From positions 1 to 41,290 of the forward strand of contig JAAYQW010000095.1 of the NCBI GenBank assembly GCA_012519115.1: a DNA stretch of 41,290 nt, in the 5' to 3' direction. Below the pieces are notes generated by a model. The model was not told the origin of the DNA and searched no databases. It saw only the letters and a program-made list of their open reading frames with translations. Source of the stretch: Spirochaetales bacterium. Its GTDB lineage: Bacteria > Spirochaetota > Spirochaetia > Sphaerochaetales > Sphaerochaetaceae. This document shows positions 10,696 through 33,225 of this stretch, in pieces. Each line of letters begins with the position of its first letter. Positions within the stretch are counted from its first letter, which is position 1. A program made the translations under genes and the position numbers.

Positions 10696-11810
10696 GAAGG
10701 AATCTCCTCATCAACCAGAATCGCGGAGGCGGGACACACCTCGTGACAACAATAACAGCGGATGCAGCGGTTTTCGTCAATCACCACGTGCTTCTTTTCA
10801 ACCTGAAGAGCATCAACGGGACAGATTTGAATACACTTTTTACAAAGGATGCACGCCTCTTCCAGAAAGAGGGGGGCTTTTCGCTGGCGTTTGACCCGCC
10901 AACGGACGAAAGGTCCGGCAAAGAAGGGAAGAATCAGAGCGTGGAAGAAGCGAGTCTTCTTTTGGACATCGATCCGTTTGTAATCGGTCTTGACCAGATC
11001 ATGCGCCTTCAGGTTCGGGTATTCACTCGGAGCTTTTCCCAACCCCCGCTTCAGCCCTTCGGCGACGATCGGAACATCAATCGGGTTGTAACCCATGATT
11101 TCCGCTTGGGCGTAATCAAGAGCCACCAAGTCTTTTGAAGCGAGAATCAGGCCAATCGGAAGGCTCAAGCCGTTGGCCGGACCGGGACCTTCCATCGCGA
11201 TGACTCCGTCCATCAGCGCGAAAGAGGCTTTGGCGACCGCGGCGATGCCGACCATCAGGGAGGCGAATTGCTCCCGGGTCGGAAAGCTCAGATGACAAGG
11301 GCTTTTATGGAGGTTCGGCACCAGGCCAAAGAGGTTCTTAATCGCACCCGTTGCGTACATCAACTGATGGGTCTTCATCTTCGGCAGGGAGAAGAGGAGG
11401 TCGACCTCCTCCAGCAACGAGGGGAGGGGAAGCTTCTTGTTCCGGGAATAGGGGATCGTGTAGGTGGTCGGGTGGTCGGTGAAATCGGCCCATTCGACCT
11501 CTTCTTCCTGGATCACCTTCCAAATTCCGCTGGCTCGGGGTCGAAAGTTCGGTGTATGGAGCCCCGGCGAATCACCGATCAGGATGCGTTTGGCTCCCTG
11601 TTCCTTCAGGAAACGGATGACGCTTCGAACGACCTGGCTGTGGGTGGTGATGCCAAGCTCCTCTTTGGAATCGGAGAGAATGTTCGGTTTCAGCAGAATC
11701 GTCTTGTCTTGGACGTCCGGCATCCCAGCAGAGATGCACGCTTCTCTGACCGCTTTTTCCACCAAGGACGGTTCATACGACTCACATCGAACAATGGAAA
11801 CACAACTCAT
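10692..11810 (-). CDS. DUF362 protein with C-terminal double [4Fe-4S] ferredoxin domain
   Basis: The 372-residue protein starts at ATG 11810, which overlaps the upstream stop as ATGA and has GGAGG five bases before it; an earlier in-frame ATG is not needed. Residues up to about 300 form the DUF362 domain (KTILLKPNILSD, LPKMKTHQLMYATGAIKNLF). The C-terminus carries two cluster motifs, CILCKKCIQICPVDAL and CIRCYCCHEVCPASAI, each able to bind a [4Fe-4S] cluster. Proteins of this type are thought to act in electron transfer, but no substrate is known. The gene is sandwiched in an overlapping three-gene operon with an rRNA methyltransferase and a small membrane protein, which gives little functional hint. 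Confidence 0.88.
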   Translation of the reverse strand: MSCVSIVRCESYEPSLVEKAVREACISAGMPDVQDKTILLKPNILSDSKEELGITTHSQVVRSVIRFLKEQGAKRILIGDSPGLHTPNFRPRASGIWKVIQEEEVEWADFTDHPTTYTIPYSRNKKLPLPSLLEEVDLLFSLPKMKTHQLMYATGAIKNLFGLVPNLHKSPCHLSFPTREQFASLMVGIAAVAKASFALMDGVIAMEGPGPANGLSLPIGLILASKDLVALDYAQAEIMGYNPIDVPIVAEGLKRGLGKAPSEYPNLKAHDLVKTDYKRIDVQKKTRFFHALILPFFAGPFVRWRVKRQRKAPLFLEEACILCKKCIQICPVDALQVEKKHVVIDENRCIRCYCCHEVCPASAILVDEEIPS

Positions 11811-12580
11811 CTGAGCCTCCGAATCAAACACATATAGAGCGGCCCTTTTCCGCCTGAAGCATCGGGAAGAATGATCGAACCGAAGGATCTCTTCTCTCCT
11901 ACGTCGAGAAGGATCTCTTCAAACCGTCCCGCTCTCCGCTTCTCAAGCTTGGCGACGACCTCTTCGTTCTCCTGAGGATTGATCGAGCAGGTGGAGTAGA
12001 GAATCGTTCCTCCCGCGACGACCGTTTCAAGGGCGGAGGCGAGCATCGCGAACTGATTGACCGCAAGGCGCTTGGGTCTTGCCGGCGACCACTCTCTCAG
12101 CGCTTTCTCATCAGCCAAGACATGACGCTCACTGGAACAGGGCGCATCAAGGAGAATCTTATCATACGCATCCTGCTCATAGAGGGACCACTTTGTCGCA
12201 TCATGGCTGGTGATCGTCATATTGGCTCGATCCTTCTCGGAAAGATGATCCTGTATCACATCCCGCAGGCGAGCCCTTCGAGCGGAGGAACGGTCATTTG
12301 CGGTCAAGCTTCCCGATCCCTTCAGTGCAGTCGCCAGTATAAGCGTTTTTCCCCCGGGAGCCGCGCACAGGTCCAAGACGCGGTCTCCTTCGCTCACACC
12401 CAACGCCCGGGCTGCGACGATCGATGCTTCATCAAGATAGTATGGCTGGAGCAACCCCTCCGCATAGGCGATAGGCTTGCGCTCTTTGAGGAGCGCTTTT
12501 TTCAAGGAATCCCAGCGATCCTGATAGAATGACCGGTAGTATTCATCAAACGCGGACGCTGCGGAGGTGTTCTTGACCAT
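11807..12580 (-). CDS. NOL1/NOP2/Sun-family RNA (cytosine-5) methyltransferase
   Basis: The 257-residue protein has the SAM-binding motif DLCAAPGGKT at about 70, and the two catalytic cysteines in DAPCSSERH and YSTCSINPQENEEVV. It would methylate a cytosine in rRNA (RsmB or RsmF type) or tRNA using S-adenosylmethionine. It lacks the N-terminal NusB-like domain of RsmB and the C-terminal RNA-binding domain of RsmF, so it is a minimal form. The start at 12580 has no Shine-Dalgarno sequence. A promoter with its -10 box ending six bases before the ATG suggests a leaderless transcript. It heads an operon of three overlapping genes. Confidence 0.9.
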   Translation of the reverse strand: MVKNTSAASAFDEYYRSFYQDRWDSLKKALLKERKPIAYAEGLLQPYYLDEASIVAARALGVSEGDRVLDLCAAPGGKTLILATALKGSGSLTANDRSSARRARLRDVIQDHLSEKDRANMTITSHDATKWSLYEQDAYDKILLDAPCSSERHVLADEKALREWSPARPKRLAVNQFAMLASALETVVAGGTILYSTCSINPQENEEVVAKLEKRRAGRFEEILLDVGEKRSFGSIILPDASGGKGPLYMCLIRRLR

Positions 12581-12586
12581 GAATCG

Positions 12587-12615
12587 ACTGTATCAGCTTT
12601 TTCTGCTCTTGTGAA
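12587..12615 (-). promoter_or_regulatory. Promoter placing transcription start on the methyltransferase ATG
   Basis: On the minus strand TTCACA (12615-12610), 17 bases, then TACAGT (12592-12587) with extended TG. Six bases separate the -10 from ATG 12580, so the start codon would be the 5' end of the mRNA. Its -35 shares bases with the divergent ccdA promoter. Confidence 0.6.
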
Positions 12616-12638
12616 CAACCTGCAACGTGTGCTATATA
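12609..12638 (+). promoter_or_regulatory. Promoter placing transcription start on the ccdA ATG
   Basis: TTGTGA (12609-12614), 18 bases, then TATATA (12633-12638) with extended TG. Six bases then lead to ATG 12645. The -35 overlaps that of the methyltransferase promoter on the other strand, so only one polymerase may bind at a time. Confidence 0.6.
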
Positions 12639-12644
12639 TGGCCA

Positions 12645-13316
12645 ATGGCATACCTGACTGCGTTTTTAGAAGGGATCATCAGCTTTATCAGTCCCTGTAT
12701 TTTACCGATTCTCCCCCTCTATTTTTCCTACCTGGCGGGGGGAATAACCGACCGTGAAGAGCGTAAAGGCATACTGATGACCAACTCGATCGCATTCGTG
12801 TCGGGGTTCACGATCCTCTTCGTCGCCCTCGGGGCGGCTTCGACCTCGATCGGACGATTTTTAAGCGATCACCTGGAGTTCCTCAACCGCATAGGGGGCG
12901 TTCTCGTGATCCTTTTTGCGATCAACAACCTCGGTTTCGTACTGATTCCTGCGTTGAACAAGAATCGCCAAATCCAATTCAAGGGCCTTTACAATATGAC
13001 GATCGGCAAGAGCATCCTCTTTGGAATCGTGTTCGCCATCGGCTGGACCCCGTGCGTGGGGCCGCTATTGGGTTCCGCGCTGATGATGGCGGCGAACGCC
13101 ACCCTGATGTACAAGGGAATGCTGACGCTCCTCTTTTATGCGCTGGGATTAGGAATTCCGTTCCTCCTTTCAGCATTGCTTCTCGACCGGTTGGAAGGAG
13201 TGTTCAATGTCATGAAAAAGCATTCCAACCTCATCACGATCACGAGCGGCGTGTTCCTCCTGGCCTTTGGCCTGGCATTGCTTCTGGGCTTCAATCCCGC
13301 CGCGCTCTTCTTATAG
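12645..13316 (+). CDS. ccdA: CcdA/DsbD-type thiol-disulfide membrane transporter
   Basis: The 223-residue protein has six hydrophobic segments. Its two reactive cysteines lie in SPCILPILPLY (about residue 18) and GWTPCVGPLLGS (about residue 135), exactly as in CcdA, which passes electrons from cytoplasmic thioredoxin across the membrane. The neighbour ten bases downstream encodes a membrane-anchored thioredoxin-like protein, its likely partner. I chose ATG 12645 over a GTG at 12627 because family members begin this way and because the -10 box (12633-12638) overlaps the longer version. No Shine-Dalgarno is present. Confidence 0.9.
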   Translation: MAYLTAFLEGIISFISPCILPILPLYFSYLAGGITDREERKGILMTNSIAFVSGFTILFVALGAASTSIGRFLSDHLEFLNRIGGVLVILFAINNLGFVLIPALNKNRQIQFKGLYNMTIGKSILFGIVFAIGWTPCVGPLLGSALMMAANATLMYKGMLTLLFYALGLGIPFLLSALLLDRLEGVFNVMKKHSNLITITSGVFLLAFGLALLLGFNPAALFL

Positions 13317-14036: not shown

Positions 14037-14673
14037 AGAACGCTACGCTTCCGCCGATGCAGAAGAGGTGCCAGATCGCATGGTGGTAGGGGAGGCGTTT
14101 GCCGGCATAAAACACCACTCCCGCCGTGTAGGTGATTCCTCCGGCCAATACATAGGGTAAAAGCCCCGGCGGCAGGAACGGGATGATATCGCCCCAGAAG
14201 AAGACGATGAGCCAACCCATCGCGATATACAGGAGAACGCGAAGAATCTTGAATTTTCCCCAGAAGAGAATTGTCAGGACGATTCCCGCGACGGCGATCG
14301 CCCATACCACGATGAGAACCATGATTGACGCAGCGGAGTTGATGCCGAGCATCAGCGGGGTGTAGGTTCCTGCGATCAGAATGTAGATGCTCGAGTGGTC
14401 CAGTACGCGCAATACTCGTTTGGCGTCACTCTTGGGCATAAGATGGTAGAGCGTCGACGAGCTATAGAGAAGAATCATCGTCAGGCAAAAGAGCACCATT
14501 CCCCAAGCGAGGGATCTTGATGAGTAGAAGGGGAACCGTCCAAGGACCATTCCAAGGGCCAGCACGGCAAGAATCGCCCCAAGACCATGGGTCAGCGCGT
14601 TCGCCCTCTCTGCGTGCGGATCATCGTAGTCGTGCAAGGTGATGTGCTTTTGCAGCCAAGATTCCGTTTTCAT
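14008..14673 (-). CDS. Hemolysin III (YqfA/PAQR-like) membrane protein
   Basis: The 221-residue protein has about seven membrane segments. Its signature residues are HAERANALTHGLGA near the N-terminus, SSTLYHL and LDHSSIYILIAGTYTP, and a closing HAIWHLFCIGG. The conserved His and Ser/Asp residues bind zinc in the PAQR superfamily, which supports an enzyme-like or lipid-related role. Despite the name, pore formation is not established for most members. The upstream TTAGGCG is a poor ribosome binding site. A weak TAGTGT lies six bases before the start, so this gene is a marginal leaderless candidate. Confidence 0.85.
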   Translation of the reverse strand: MKTESWLQKHITLHDYDDPHAERANALTHGLGAILAVLALGMVLGRFPFYSSRSLAWGMVLFCLTMILLYSSSTLYHLMPKSDAKRVLRVLDHSSIYILIAGTYTPLMLGINSAASIMVLIVVWAIAVAGIVLTILFWGKFKILRVLLYIAMGWLIVFFWGDIIPFLPPGLLPYVLAGGITYTAGVVFYAGKRLPYHHAIWHLFCIGGSVAFFIGCFVKLR

Positions 14674-14689
14674 CGCCTAACACTACAAA

Positions 14690-14724
14690 AAGCGGTCCTC
14701 CTTGAGCAAGATTTTGGACCGCTT
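14690..14724 (-). terminator. Rho-independent terminator of the amino-acid ABC operon
   Basis: AAGCGGTCC (14690-14698) pairs with GGACCGCTT (14716-14724). On the minus strand the hairpin is followed by a T-run, fitting termination after the ATPase gene, which ends at 14747. It lies upstream of the hemolysin III start. Confidence 0.75.
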
Positions 14725-17299: not shown

Positions 17300-17752
17300 T
17301 TAATAAAGCGTTACCAACAGACCGATAGCGAGACCCAAGATCATCCCGCCAAGAATCTGACTGAAAGAGTGCCCGAGCATCGTCTTGAGGTTTTCCGGCG
17401 TGAACTGGCCTTCGTTGTGGATATCGCTCAGGATTCTGCTCCATTCATTGATCACTTCGGCTTGCTTGCCCGCCGCGCGTCGGATGCCCATCGCATCGTG
17501 GATGACGATCGAGGCGAAGGTGAAGCTGATCGCGAAATACACGGTTCCGACTCCGTAGGTCAATCCGATGGAAGTAACCAGGGCGACCACCCCGGCGGTG
17601 TGGCTGGAGGGCATTCCGCCGGTGGTAAACAGCAAATGCCAGACAAACCTTCGTTCAAAGAGTGCATTCACAAATGGCTTCAGAATCTGAGCAATAAGAA
17701 AAGCAAGCATGGCGGAGACGAAAGCGCTGTTTGCCAAGAGGTTGTTATTCAT
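17300..17752 (-). CDS. Divergent PAP2-family (DUF212, YuiD-like) membrane protein
   Basis: The 150-residue membrane protein carries the family marks GGMPSSHTAGVVAL and HDAMGIRRAAGKQAEVIN, which echo the phosphatase motifs of PAP2 enzymes (Ser-His and Arg-containing boxes). It may dephosphorylate a lipid or another phosphate ester, but no member's substrate is firmly known to me. The start at 17752 has no Shine-Dalgarno sequence. A promoter whose -10 ends six bases before the ATG makes it a leaderless candidate. It diverges from the MFS gene. Confidence 0.88.
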   Translation of the reverse strand: MNNNLLANSAFVSAMLAFLIAQILKPFVNALFERRFVWHLLFTTGGMPSSHTAGVVALVTSIGLTYGVGTVYFAISFTFASIVIHDAMGIRRAAGKQAEVINEWSRILSDIHNEGQFTPENLKTMLGHSFSQILGGMILGLAIGLLVTLY

Positions 17753-17758
17753 AGGATA

Positions 17759-17787
17759 AATGTATAGGTTTTACCTAACTTGGGCAA
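17759..17787 (-). promoter_or_regulatory. Promoter placing transcription start on the DUF212-gene ATG
   Basis: TTGCCC (17787-17782), 17 bases, TACATT (17764-17759) on the minus strand, then six bases to ATG 17752. Confidence 0.5.
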
Positions 17788-25847: not shown

Positions 25848-25876
25848 TTGTGTTAATACCTTGAACTTTTTATACT
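25848..25876 (+). promoter_or_regulatory. Promoter placing transcription start on the ABC ATPase ATG
   Basis: TTGTGT (25848-25853), 17 bases, TATACT (25871-25876), then six bases to ATG 25883. No ribosome binding site fits in between. Confidence 0.6.
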
Positions 25877-25882
25877 GTTTTC

Positions 25883-26605
25883 ATGCTCATATGTGACAAG
25901 TTATACAAGCGATATGCAAAGAACGCCCCCTACGCAGTGGAAGATCTGACACTGAAGGTTGGAGAAGGCGAGATTTTCGGATTCCTTGGTCCCAACGGAG
26001 CGGGAAAGTCGACGACGATCAAGATGATCGTTGCGCTGCTGAACAGCGACAGCGGCGAGGTGAGTCTGGACGGCATCACCGTCAAGGATGATCCGATCGC
26101 CTATAAGCGGTTGATCGGCTACGTGGCGGATGAACCCCAGTTTTACGACAAGATGAGCGCGAATGAGCATTTGGCGTTCATCGGGGATCTCTATCAGATT
26201 CCGCAAAACGAGCGGACCGGGCGAATCGCCGAGTTGGCCGCGACGCTTCGTCTGCAAGATGCGCTGAATGATGAAATCGGCTCCTTTTCCCACGGCATGA
26301 GGCAAAAGCTGGCGATCATCAGCGCTCTGCTGCCCGCCCCCAAGCTGCTGGTTCTGGATGAGCCGATGGTGGGCTTGGATCCGAAAGCGTCATTCGAGGT
26401 GAAAAACCTCCTGAAAGAGCTTGCAAAGGAGGGGAGGATCGTCTTTTTCTCCACTCACGTTCTCGAGGTCGCCCAGCAGCTTTGCACCAGCTTGGGGATC
26501 ATCAACGAAGGAAAGCTCATCTACCATGGAACGTTCGAGGCGTTGCAGAACGAACGGAATGAAAGCTTGGAAGAGCTCTTCCTGGAATTGACGGAGAAAA
26601 GCTGA
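25883..26605 (+). CDS. ABC-2-type transporter, ATP-binding subunit
   Basis: The 240-residue ATPase has Walker A GPNGAGKSTT, the signature FSHGMRQKLAI, Walker B LLVLDEP and the switch His in STHVLEVA. This is the subfamily that powers ABC-2 exporters (antibiotic, lipid or polysaccharide). It lacks a Shine-Dalgarno sequence and looks leaderless. Its stop overlaps the next start as TGATG, so the permease is co-translated. The substrate is unknown. Confidence 0.93.
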   Translation: MLICDKLYKRYAKNAPYAVEDLTLKVGEGEIFGFLGPNGAGKSTTIKMIVALLNSDSGEVSLDGITVKDDPIAYKRLIGYVADEPQFYDKMSANEHLAFIGDLYQIPQNERTGRIAELAATLRLQDALNDEIGSFSHGMRQKLAIISALLPAPKLLVLDEPMVGLDPKASFEVKNLLKELAKEGRIVFFSTHVLEVAQQLCTSLGIINEGKLIYHGTFEALQNERNESLEELFLELTEKS

Positions 26606-28245: not shown

Positions 28246-28907
28246 GAAGTGAGGAACTCCTTCGCTCGTTCGCACGCCGACGGCAGCGAGGCGTGAAGCT
28301 CAAAGGGATGGGGTGAAGATTCGGCCCCCCAGATCAAAAGAAGGCCCAGATCCGCCGCCCGGAGCATCGGAATATCGGTCGGTCCGTCGCCGATCGCGAC
28401 AATGTTCTCATAGGTTTCTCGCAAGGCTTCGAGATTGGCGCGTTTGCCTTCAGCTTCCCCGATATTGACTTGCAGGTATGCCTTGTTCTTCTTCCAATGA
28501 ATCCGTTTTGCTTTGATAAGGAAGAATTCATCTCTCAGACCGAGCTCCTCCAAAAAGAGTTCGGCGAGGTTTTCAGTTCCGAGGCTCAGAATCGCCAGAT
28601 CGGCGATCTCCGTCAGATCCCGAATCGCCTGAACGTCCTCTTTGCCAAGGAGCGCAGCCAGATCCCCGGCCGTCTTTTCCAATAAAACGGGGTCGACGTC
28701 ACGAATCATCTTCTCGTAGCGTTTGTAGAATTGCGGGTTGTTGAATGCTCCCCGTTGGTCGGCGCGGACAAAGAGGCGGGCGCGGAGACGAAAGAGGGGG
28801 CCTTTGGTCTTGGCGTGCGAGAGGACAAGCGTCTGTTCGCTATCGTAGGGGCGAAACGGGTAGAGCGTTCCGTCAAAATCAAAGACGACAAGGTTGGGTT
28901 TGGCCAT
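28242..28907 (-). CDS. HAD-superfamily phosphatase
   Basis: The 221-residue enzyme has motif I VVFDFDGTLY (nucleophile Asp10), motif II LSLGT, and motif IV AIGDGPTDIPML, with a helical cap between I and II. It resembles phosphoserine phosphatase or other small HAD hydrolases; the substrate cannot be named. ATG 28907 puts the nucleophile in the usual place, and earlier in-frame codons are not needed. No ribosome binding site precedes it. A -10 TATGGT ends five bases before the start, so it is a leaderless candidate. The hflC terminator lies just upstream. Confidence 0.85.
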   Translation of the reverse strand: MAKPNLVVFDFDGTLYPFRPYDSEQTLVLSHAKTKGPLFRLRARLFVRADQRGAFNNPQFYKRYEKMIRDVDPVLLEKTAGDLAALLGKEDVQAIRDLTEIADLAILSLGTENLAELFLEELGLRDEFFLIKAKRIHWKKNKAYLQVNIGEAEGKRANLEALRETYENIVAIGDGPTDIPMLRAADLGLLLIWGAESSPHPFELHASLPSACERAKEFLTS

Positions 28908-28912
28908 GGCCA

Positions 28913-28941
28913 ACCATAGCAAGAGAAGAAAAAAAGGGGAA
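28913..28941 (-). promoter_or_regulatory. Promoter placing transcription start at the HAD-gene ATG
   Basis: TATGGT (28918-28913) with extended TG, 17 bases after a poor -35 TTCCCC (28941-28936), and five bases before ATG 28907. The -35 lies in the hflC terminator stem. Confidence 0.4.
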
Positions 28942-28958
28942 GGGTGGCAGCCTTCCCC
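28929..28958 (-). terminator. Rho-independent terminator after hflC
   Basis: On the minus strand GGGGAAGG (28958-28951) pairs with CCTTCCCC (28943-28936) across a seven-base loop and is followed by a run of seven T. Confidence 0.9.
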
Positions 28959-28979
28959 CTGATATCTTTTAATAATTCT

Positions 28980-31005: not shown

Positions 31006-31034
31006 TTGAAAAGAAAATACCGGCGGTCTATGAT
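31006..31034 (+). promoter_or_regulatory. Promoter placing transcription start next to the metG ATG
   Basis: TTGAAA (31006-31011), 17 bases, TATGAT (31029-31034), each five of six to consensus. Seven bases separate it from ATG 31042. The -10 overlaps two earlier in-frame ATGs, which therefore cannot both be transcribed and serve as starts. Confidence 0.65.
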
Positions 31035-31041
31035 GACGGTC

Positions 31042-33225
31042 ATGAAAAAACGACTCATTACCAGTGCTCTGCCCTATGTGAACAACATCCCCCACTTAGG
31101 GAATCTCATTCAAGTTCTCAGTGCGGATGTCTTCGCTCGGTTCTGCCGATCGAAAGGGTATGAAACGCTCTATATATGCGGAACGGATGAATACGGAACC
31201 GCCACGGAAACCCGGGCGCTTCAGGAAGGGGTGACTCCCCGGCAATTGTGCGACCATTACTTTGTCATCCACCGCGATATTTATGAGTGGTTCAACATAC
31301 GGTTCGACCACTTCGGACGAACTTCCACCCCCGCTCAGACGAAAATCGTCCAGGCGATCTTCAAAAAAGTCGACAAACGCGGCTACATTTCAGAACATGA
31401 GATCGAACAGCTGTACTGCCCCACCTGCGACCGCTTCCTAGCCGATCGCTTTGTCGAGGGGACCTGTCCGGTTTGCAGCTATGAAAAAGCCCGGGGGGAC
31501 CAGTGCGATCATTGCCAGAGCCTATTGGAACCGACCGAGCTCATCGACCCTCATTGCGGGGTGTGCGGCACCAAGCCGGAATTGCGGAAAACGAAACACC
31601 TCTATCTTGATTTGCCGAAAGCACTCCCTCTTTTGGAAGCATGGATGGACACGGCGAGCAAAGAGGGATTCTGGGCGAACAATGCGATTCAGGTCACTCG
31701 GTCATGGATTCGCGACGGTCTGAAAGAACGGGCGATCACCCGTGATCTGAAGTGGGGGATTCCCGTTCCCAAAGAGGGATACGAGAACAAGGTCTTTTAT
31801 GTGTGGTTCGATGCCCCGATCGGATATATCTCGATCACCAGCGAAGCGACGGAAGAGTGGAAGTCCTGGTGGCAGGATCCTCAAAACGTCGAACTCTTCC
31901 AGTTCATCGGGAAGGACAATATTCCATTCCACACCGTCATCTTCCCATCGACTCTGCTGGCGACCGGGGATGAATGGACGATGCTTCATCACATGTCCAG
32001 CAGCGAGTATCTCAACTACGAGGGCGGCAAGTTCTCCAAGAGCCTCGGGATCGGAATATTCGGAAACGATGTCCGGGACACGAAGATTCCCGTTGATGTG
32101 TGGCGCTTCTATATCTTCTACAACCGGCCTGAAACGAGCGACTTCACCTTCACGTGGAGCGATTTCCAAGAGAAGGTGAACGGTCAGCTGATCGGGAACC
32201 TCTCCAATCTGGTGAATCGGACTCTCACCTTCGTCAATCGCTTCTACAAGGATGATTCCGACCTTTTCGATGCTGAGATCGATACGGCTCTGTACGATGA
32301 AGTCAAAGCGATCGAAGCAAACATCGATCGGATTCTGGAGCGGAGCGAGCTGCGCGAAGGCCTCCGGCAGATTCTCGCTCTCTCTTCGGTGGGAAACAAG
32401 GCGTTCCAGGATGGGGAACCGTGGAAGGCGCGTAACGAGAATCCCGAGAAAGCGAAGAGTCTCTTGAAGACGTTGCTGTACGTGATTCGCGACATAGGCA
32501 TCCTTATCGAGCCGTATATGCCGCACACCAGCCAAGAGGTCCTTTCCTTCGTCGGCTCCGAGAGCGCAAGGTGGAACGATCTGGGATCGACCGATGCCGC
32601 ATTGACCCTGCGTGAACCGACCCTTCTCTTCGAGAAATTGGAGGATGAGCGCATCGCCGAGCTTCGAGAGCGTTTCAGCGGCTCTCAGGATCAGCGAAAT
32701 CAGGAAATGAAGGAAGAACTGTCAAATGGCCGGATCTTTGCCGAAAAAGTGATTCTCAAAGTCGCCCGGATCACCGAGGTTGAAAAACACCCCAACGGTG
32801 ATCGTCTCTATATCCTTACCCTGGATGTGAACGAGGATGAGGAACGCACGATTGTAAGTTCGATCGTTCCCTTCTACACGGAAGAGGAGCTCCTGAATAG
32901 GAAGATCGTCCTGGTCAGCAACATGAAACCCTCGAACTTCCGAGGGGTGAAGAGCAGGGGAATGCTTCTAGCGGCGAACGATCCCGAAGCGGAAGAGCAC
33001 ACCACGTGCGAAGTGGTCTTCGCCGATGATTTTGAGACGGGAGCGATTCTGGAAGTTGAAGGATTCGATCCACCACAAACGGATATTCCCTACGTGAAGG
33101 CGGATCTCTTCTTCTCTTTTGAGCTGTATGCGGAAGATGGGGTCGTGAAGGTTGACGGACGACCGATCGGAAAAGAGGGCAGGCAGATCAAAACTGTCAA
33201 ATATCTCAACGGTCCGGTAAACTAG
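31042..33225 (+). CDS. metG: Methionyl-tRNA synthetase with C-terminal tRNA-binding domain
   Basis: The 727-residue enzyme charges tRNA with methionine. SALPYVNNIPHLGN carries the HIGH-type motif and GGKFSKSLG the KMSKS-type motif. Two zinc knuckles are visible between about 130 and 190 (CPTC, CPVC, CDHC, CGVC pairs). The last 115 residues form an OB-fold tRNA-binding domain (VARITEVEKHPNGDRLYIL, SNMKPSNFRGVKSRGM), as in long dimeric enzymes. ATG 31042 matches the family start and lacks a Shine-Dalgarno sequence; earlier in-frame ATGs at 31030 and 31033 sit in the -10 box. A FemAB-like gene follows six bases after the stop. Confidence 0.97.
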   Translation: MKKRLITSALPYVNNIPHLGNLIQVLSADVFARFCRSKGYETLYICGTDEYGTATETRALQEGVTPRQLCDHYFVIHRDIYEWFNIRFDHFGRTSTPAQTKIVQAIFKKVDKRGYISEHEIEQLYCPTCDRFLADRFVEGTCPVCSYEKARGDQCDHCQSLLEPTELIDPHCGVCGTKPELRKTKHLYLDLPKALPLLEAWMDTASKEGFWANNAIQVTRSWIRDGLKERAITRDLKWGIPVPKEGYENKVFYVWFDAPIGYISITSEATEEWKSWWQDPQNVELFQFIGKDNIPFHTVIFPSTLLATGDEWTMLHHMSSSEYLNYEGGKFSKSLGIGIFGNDVRDTKIPVDVWRFYIFYNRPETSDFTFTWSDFQEKVNGQLIGNLSNLVNRTLTFVNRFYKDDSDLFDAEIDTALYDEVKAIEANIDRILERSELREGLRQILALSSVGNKAFQDGEPWKARNENPEKAKSLLKTLLYVIRDIGILIEPYMPHTSQEVLSFVGSESARWNDLGSTDAALTLREPTLLFEKLEDERIAELRERFSGSQDQRNQEMKEELSNGRIFAEKVILKVARITEVEKHPNGDRLYILTLDVNEDEERTIVSSIVPFYTEEELLNRKIVLVSNMKPSNFRGVKSRGMLLAANDPEAEEHTTCEVVFADDFETGAILEVEGFDPPQTDIPYVKADLFFSFELYAEDGVVKVDGRPIGKEGRQIKTVKYLNGPVN

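Follow-up and report, generated by a model that had tools for sequence, protein, structure and literature searches.

Predicted leaderless genes and mirrored promoters on a shared -35 element in a Sphaerochaeta-type spirochaete

Leaderless genes are known in bacteria, including the spirochaetes. Extensive leaderless transcriptomes have been measured in Mycobacterium tuberculosis (PMC3898074) and, as cited in PMC5243855, in Deinococcus deserti, and dRNA-seq of Leptospira interrogans maps the transcription start of about 430–450 genes to less than 10 nt from the start codon (PMC5243855). For the spirochaetes more widely, Zheng et al. (2011) predict TA-led leaderless genes in 6 of 18 genomes, at 1.8–6.9% of genes (PMC3160421). 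The initial annotation of the DNA considered here, a window of 41,290 nucleotides, knew of no report of widespread leaderless transcription in spirochaetes, and was mistaken given the mapped starts of L. interrogans (PMC5243855) and these predictions (PMC3160421). A literature search, with most subscription journals outside its reach, found no report of leaderless genes in Treponema or Sphaerochaeta; what is new here is the lineage concerned, how extensive the leaderless genes are and how deeply they are conserved, the changes between leaderless and Shine-Dalgarno (SD) initiation, and the mirrored promoters.

As in M. tuberculosis and D. deserti, a large leaderless minority is predicted here beside genes with SD sequences, although those bacteria belong to distant phyla and their leaderless transcripts were measured where ours are inferred (PMC3898074; D. 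deserti as cited in PMC5243855). L. interrogans likewise belongs to the spirochaete phylum, but to another class, with transcript ends measured there and predicted here, and whereas that study found no general promoter motif (PMC5243855), clear -10 and -35 elements are present here. The genes described below resemble the TA-led genes (PMC3160421) in having a TANNNT core some 12 bp before the start, found here above chance, and in lacking an SD sequence. The estimates of Zheng et al. are not directly comparable with the value of about 15% obtained here, since our model also uses the -35 element; conservation and mirrored promoters, both treated here, were not among the subjects of that study.

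The window is one of the 117 contigs of a draft genome of 1.70 Mb (83% complete). Its metG shares 92% identity with the Sphaerochaeta sp. MAG5 counterpart and about 71% with the Sphaerochaeta halotolerans one, and the source is therefore a Sphaerochaeta-type spirochaete. Genome-wide figures come from a 593-kb sample, about a third of the genome and including the window, from which two small contigs reading as N were excluded. Within this sample 479 genes were called from codon usage alone, ignoring upstream signals, with starts based on coding score and homology, and 465 starts were used for the TANNNT position counts.

Judged by sequence alone, a large minority of genes in this little-studied spirochaete group is probably leaderless, with about one gene in seven of the Sphaerochaeta-type genome appearing to be translated from its first codon without a leader. 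Sigma-70-type promoters are very probably set so that transcription begins at, or within 1–2 nt of, the A of the ATG, leading to leaderless translation, as suggested by the position of the -10 box, the -35 element at 17 bp, the absence of an SD, the enrichment over controls, and conservation. RNA polymerase would initiate at or no more than 1–2 nt from the A of the start ATG, yielding mRNAs with neither leader nor SD, the 5'-terminal AUG of which would bind the ribosome directly.

The initial annotation had singled out six starts as fixed by homology and free of an SD, those of an RsmB/F-family rRNA methyltransferase, CcdA (DsbD_TM), a DUF212 protein, an ABC ATPase, a HAD hydrolase, and methionyl-tRNA synthetase (families from Pfam). 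The N-termini of five of these proteins (CcdA, DUF212, ABC ATPase, HAD, and MetG) align from residue 1 with those of relatives, the methyltransferase start is fixed by a conserved CAT/-10 block, and none of the six carries an SD. Each was further said to have a TAnnnT-type -10 box ending 5–7 nt before the ATG, mostly with a -35 box 17–18 bp above it; the distance holds at all six, but the ccdA box is TATATA, and a -35-like box is present at five starts but not at that of HAD, where a terminator-like hairpin of the upstream gene occupies the site and an extended -10 (TGCTATGGT) is found instead (Table 1).

Table 1. Features of the predicted leaderless starts, in window coordinates
Feature	Position	Strand	Details
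Methyltransferase ATG	12578..12580	-	Gene 12580..11807; predicted mRNA 5' end A12580
Methyltransferase -10 TACAGT	12587..12592	-	6 nt before ATG; invariant in 17/17 same-genus species
Shared -35 heptamer TTGTGAA	12609..12615	.	Invariant in 17/17 species
ccdA -10 TATATA	12633..12638	+	6 nt before ATG; TATGCT or TATATT in relatives
ccdA ATG (DsbD_TM family), predicted leaderless	12645..12647	+	Pfam E=1.6e-16; posterior 0.83
HlyIII-family gene start, seventh candidate	14671..14709	-	-35 TTGCTC 14709-14704; -10 TAGTGT 14685-14680; ATG 14673-14671
DUF212 start	17750..17787	-	-35 TTGCCC 17787-17782; 17-bp spacer; -10 TACATT 17764-17759; ATG 17752-17750
ABC ATPase start	25848..25885	+	-35 TTGTGT 25848-25853; 17-bp spacer; -10 TATACT 25871-25876; ATG 25883
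HAD start	28905..28921	-	Extended -10 TGC-TATGGT (28921-28913); 5 nt; ATG 28907-28905; no -35
Terminator-like hairpin and T-run of gene upstream of HAD	28929..28960	-	Occupies expected HAD -35 site; same in 20 genomes
metG start	31006..31044	+	-35 TTGAAA 31006-31011; 17-bp spacer; -10 TATGAT 31029-31034; ATG 31042

A two-class model of gene starts strayed toward the SD motif and was abandoned; the three-class model used in its place learned TATACT and TTGACA at 17-bp spacing for one class and AAGGAG for the SD class. Applied to the 593 kb, it assigns 15% of genes to the leaderless class (bootstrap 12–19%), 51% to the SD class, and 34% to neither, so that about one third of the genes in the 465-start sample fit neither class. 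The leaderless share falls to 0–0.6% in shuffles, 0.6% at internal ATGs, 0 at antisense ATGs, and 0 of 71 in E. coli. Leaderless initiation requires an AUG start codon, and AUG is the start codon in 65 of the 68 genes predicted to be leaderless genome-wide. The predicted leaderless genes are mainly those that have their own promoter, in particular those with a divergent neighbour, where their share reaches 32% compared with 5.6% inside operons (less than 40 bp from a same-strand neighbour), whilst SD users form the majority. These statistics, together with conservation, support the proposal of the initial annotation that leaderless and SD initiation coexist.

The lengths of the predicted leaders in this genome are bimodal, with a spike at 0–2 nt (42 genes, 2 with an SD), a trough at 3–10 nt (13 genes), and SD-bearing leaders from 11 nt (52 genes at 11–29 nt, 42 with an SD). 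Eight further genomes, from the same genus, family, and class, provide an independent test because none of them was used in training the model, for which this genome served. With the model fixed, their 532 genes include 30 with leaders of 0–2 nt, none with an SD; leaders of 3–10 nt are rare, and those of 11 nt or more mostly bear an SD. The 0–2 nt spike is absent under the same model in E. coli and in a genome of family f5. Per-genome fits within the class give leaderless shares between 4.5% and 14.5%, apart from the f5 genome (0), and of four genomes fitted outside the class three give 0–2% and the fourth 11%, a rough map given samples of 80–100 kb each and a Sphaerochaeta-trained model that may miss other promoter types.

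The boxes may alternatively be real promoters of minor importance, with SD-free mRNAs that carry leaders and originate from promoters further upstream dominating. Some upstream gaps are long enough to house such promoters, as at the ABC ATPase (231 bp), and the 34% of genes with neither signal suggest that SD-free initiation on leadered mRNAs may exist. Against this, the 64-bp gap between the methyltransferase gene and ccdA would force a leadered promoter into the opposite gene, and the trough at 3–10 nt argues for selection on the position of the promoter relative to the ATG, making this explanation unlikely.

Leaderless initiation from closely set promoters is further suggested by metG, in which a -35/-10 pair ends at the ATG in 68 of 78 spirochaetes and SD leaders are found in seven, although, with related rows not independent, the counts should not be read as a test of significance. 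All 68 leaderless metG genes start with ATG and six of the seven with SD leaders with GTG or TTG, and the metG tree requires at least three changes to SD to account for the seven. With metG predicted to be leaderless over much of the class and to have lost this form at least three times, the evolution of changes between the leaderless and SD modes is open to study. In a quite different reading the A/T-rich hexamer would act in translation, as an enhancer serving for instance ribosomal protein S1, and be no promoter at all; this draws on the A/T-rich bias ahead of non-SD genes in other phyla, for which a role as an S1 signal has been considered (PMC5397173). The reading is nevertheless very improbable, given that genes chosen solely for a TANNNT box and the absence of an SD have, 17 bp upstream, a TTGaC(A)/TTGaCa-like box that was not selected for (first base T in 73%), that 57 of the 68 metG promoters have a 17-bp spacer, and that the predicted leaderless genes are markedly biased toward divergent neighbours.

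Counting -10 hexamers near starts against shuffles, as the initial annotation had proposed, gave 61 TANNNT boxes summed over positions -14 to -11 compared with 24.9 ± 5.2 expected, the highest of 50 shuffles reaching 38. Boxes beginning at -12 account for 31 of the 465 starts, where about 6.5 are expected from dinucleotide shuffles, and a peak exactly at -12 places +1 on the A of the ATG; internal ATGs in the same sample show no TANNNT peak. Chance occurrence of A/T-rich hexamers at a suitable distance, combined with errors in start assignment, can be dismissed, since however weak a pattern TANNNT is (about 1.4% per position), this excess, the far lower shuffle, shift, internal-ATG, and E. coli controls, and the conservation of the promoters across species already refute it.

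Overlap between the elements of back-to-back promoters is a generally known arrangement. The -35 boxes of the methyltransferase gene and ccdA do overlap, as initially described, and this is conserved in 17 of 17 same-genus species (the window's included), all of which keep the left -10 TACAGT, an 11-mer, and the right -10, with almost constant distances between them. The heptamer is read as TTGTGA (12609-12614, + strand) for ccdA and as TTCACA (12610-12615, - strand) for the methyltransferase, offset by one base, and sits within the nearly invariant 11-mer CTCTTGTGAAC (16–17 of 17 species at each base). The methyltransferase gene (Pfam Methyltr_RsmB-F, E=6.8e-33) has a leaderless posterior of 1.00, and the N-terminus of CcdA aligns from residue 1 in 17 species. 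The two leaderless promoters would be mirror images built on one -35 heptamer, at which, given the near-complete overlap, RNA polymerase could probably face one way or the other but not both at once, with the two genes competing for it. The conserved 11-mer could alternatively be a regulator site. In other genera the region roughly 35–60 bp upstream of ccdA (L139-L143) carries the palindromic motif GTGAyAAAGTyAC (GTGACAAAGTCAC in L139, for instance), perhaps a regulator site; it was not seen upstream of ccdA in the window's genus.

In E. coli, bidirectional promoters of pseudo-symmetric DNA drive divergent transcription from a shared -10 with starts 10–23 bp apart (PMC12825309). In contrast, the methyltransferase gene and ccdA have separate -10 boxes and share the -35, their predicted starts lie about 65 bp apart, and both are predicted to be leaderless. 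This leaderless form with a shared -35 may be a variant worth testing, and would offer a compact system for polymerase competition.

Similar arrangements occur elsewhere. A second pair in the same genome (L092, 66 bp apart) uses TTGTCAA in the manner of TTGTGAA, and one pair in three Treponema-side genomes (L078, L079, and L080) has TTGTCAA as its shared -35; two more mirror matches in the source genome (L091 and L116) were not linked to gene pairs. The mirror scan gave 35 matches, many of them orthologs, with 0 in the reversed-sequence control and 2 after block shuffling, and, being restricted to strict TANNNT boxes, missed the window's own pair because the ccdA box here is TATATA. The mirrored -10/TTGTCAA/-10 pattern is found in 220 of 297 genomes of the class, compared with 63 for the control core TTCTGAA of equal composition, with matches taken regardless of leaderless-gene context and A/T-rich genomes adding chance matches. 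In this genome nine divergent pairs are separated by 55–90 bp; when a leaderless promoter is counted as TANNNT plus three or more matching -35 bases out of six, eight of these pairs contain one or more, and four contain two. It is possible, though somewhat doubtful, that leaderless expression is old and lineage-wide in Sphaerochaeta- and Treponema-related spirochaetes, with mirrored TTGTSAA promoters serving as either/or switches for divergent genes.

The remaining starts in the window differ in how widely their layout is kept. The DUF212 arrangement of -35, -10, and ATG (posterior leaderless 1.00) is found in 20 genomes; for its -10, TACATT was preferred to the alternative TATACA because it agrees with a 17-bp spacer. 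At the HAD start (posterior 0.95) a TGCTACACT-type box is retained in 20 genomes. The ABC ATPase (posterior 1.00) is predicted to be leaderless here and in four others of the 20 genomes compared (L217-L236), the other 15 having an SD leader and retaining a TATACT-type box, and the predicted initiation mode thus visibly flips between a leader of about 0 nt and a short SD leader with the -10 constant. The posterior for metG at 31042 is 0.98. Calling by coding score placed this start 12 nt before the conserved one, at an in-frame ATG (31030) that falls within the -10 box of metG itself; automatic annotation may misplace it likewise, and starts and promoters in these genomes may therefore be misannotated. 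A seventh candidate, an HlyIII-family gene at 14673 (posterior 0.95), was overlooked in the initial annotation. Its -35 lies in the loop of a terminator-like hairpin of the upstream gene (14680-14715). The leaderless layout of this gene is found solely in the window's species and the nearest species, with SD leaders in the others, and it is therefore a lineage-specific candidate.
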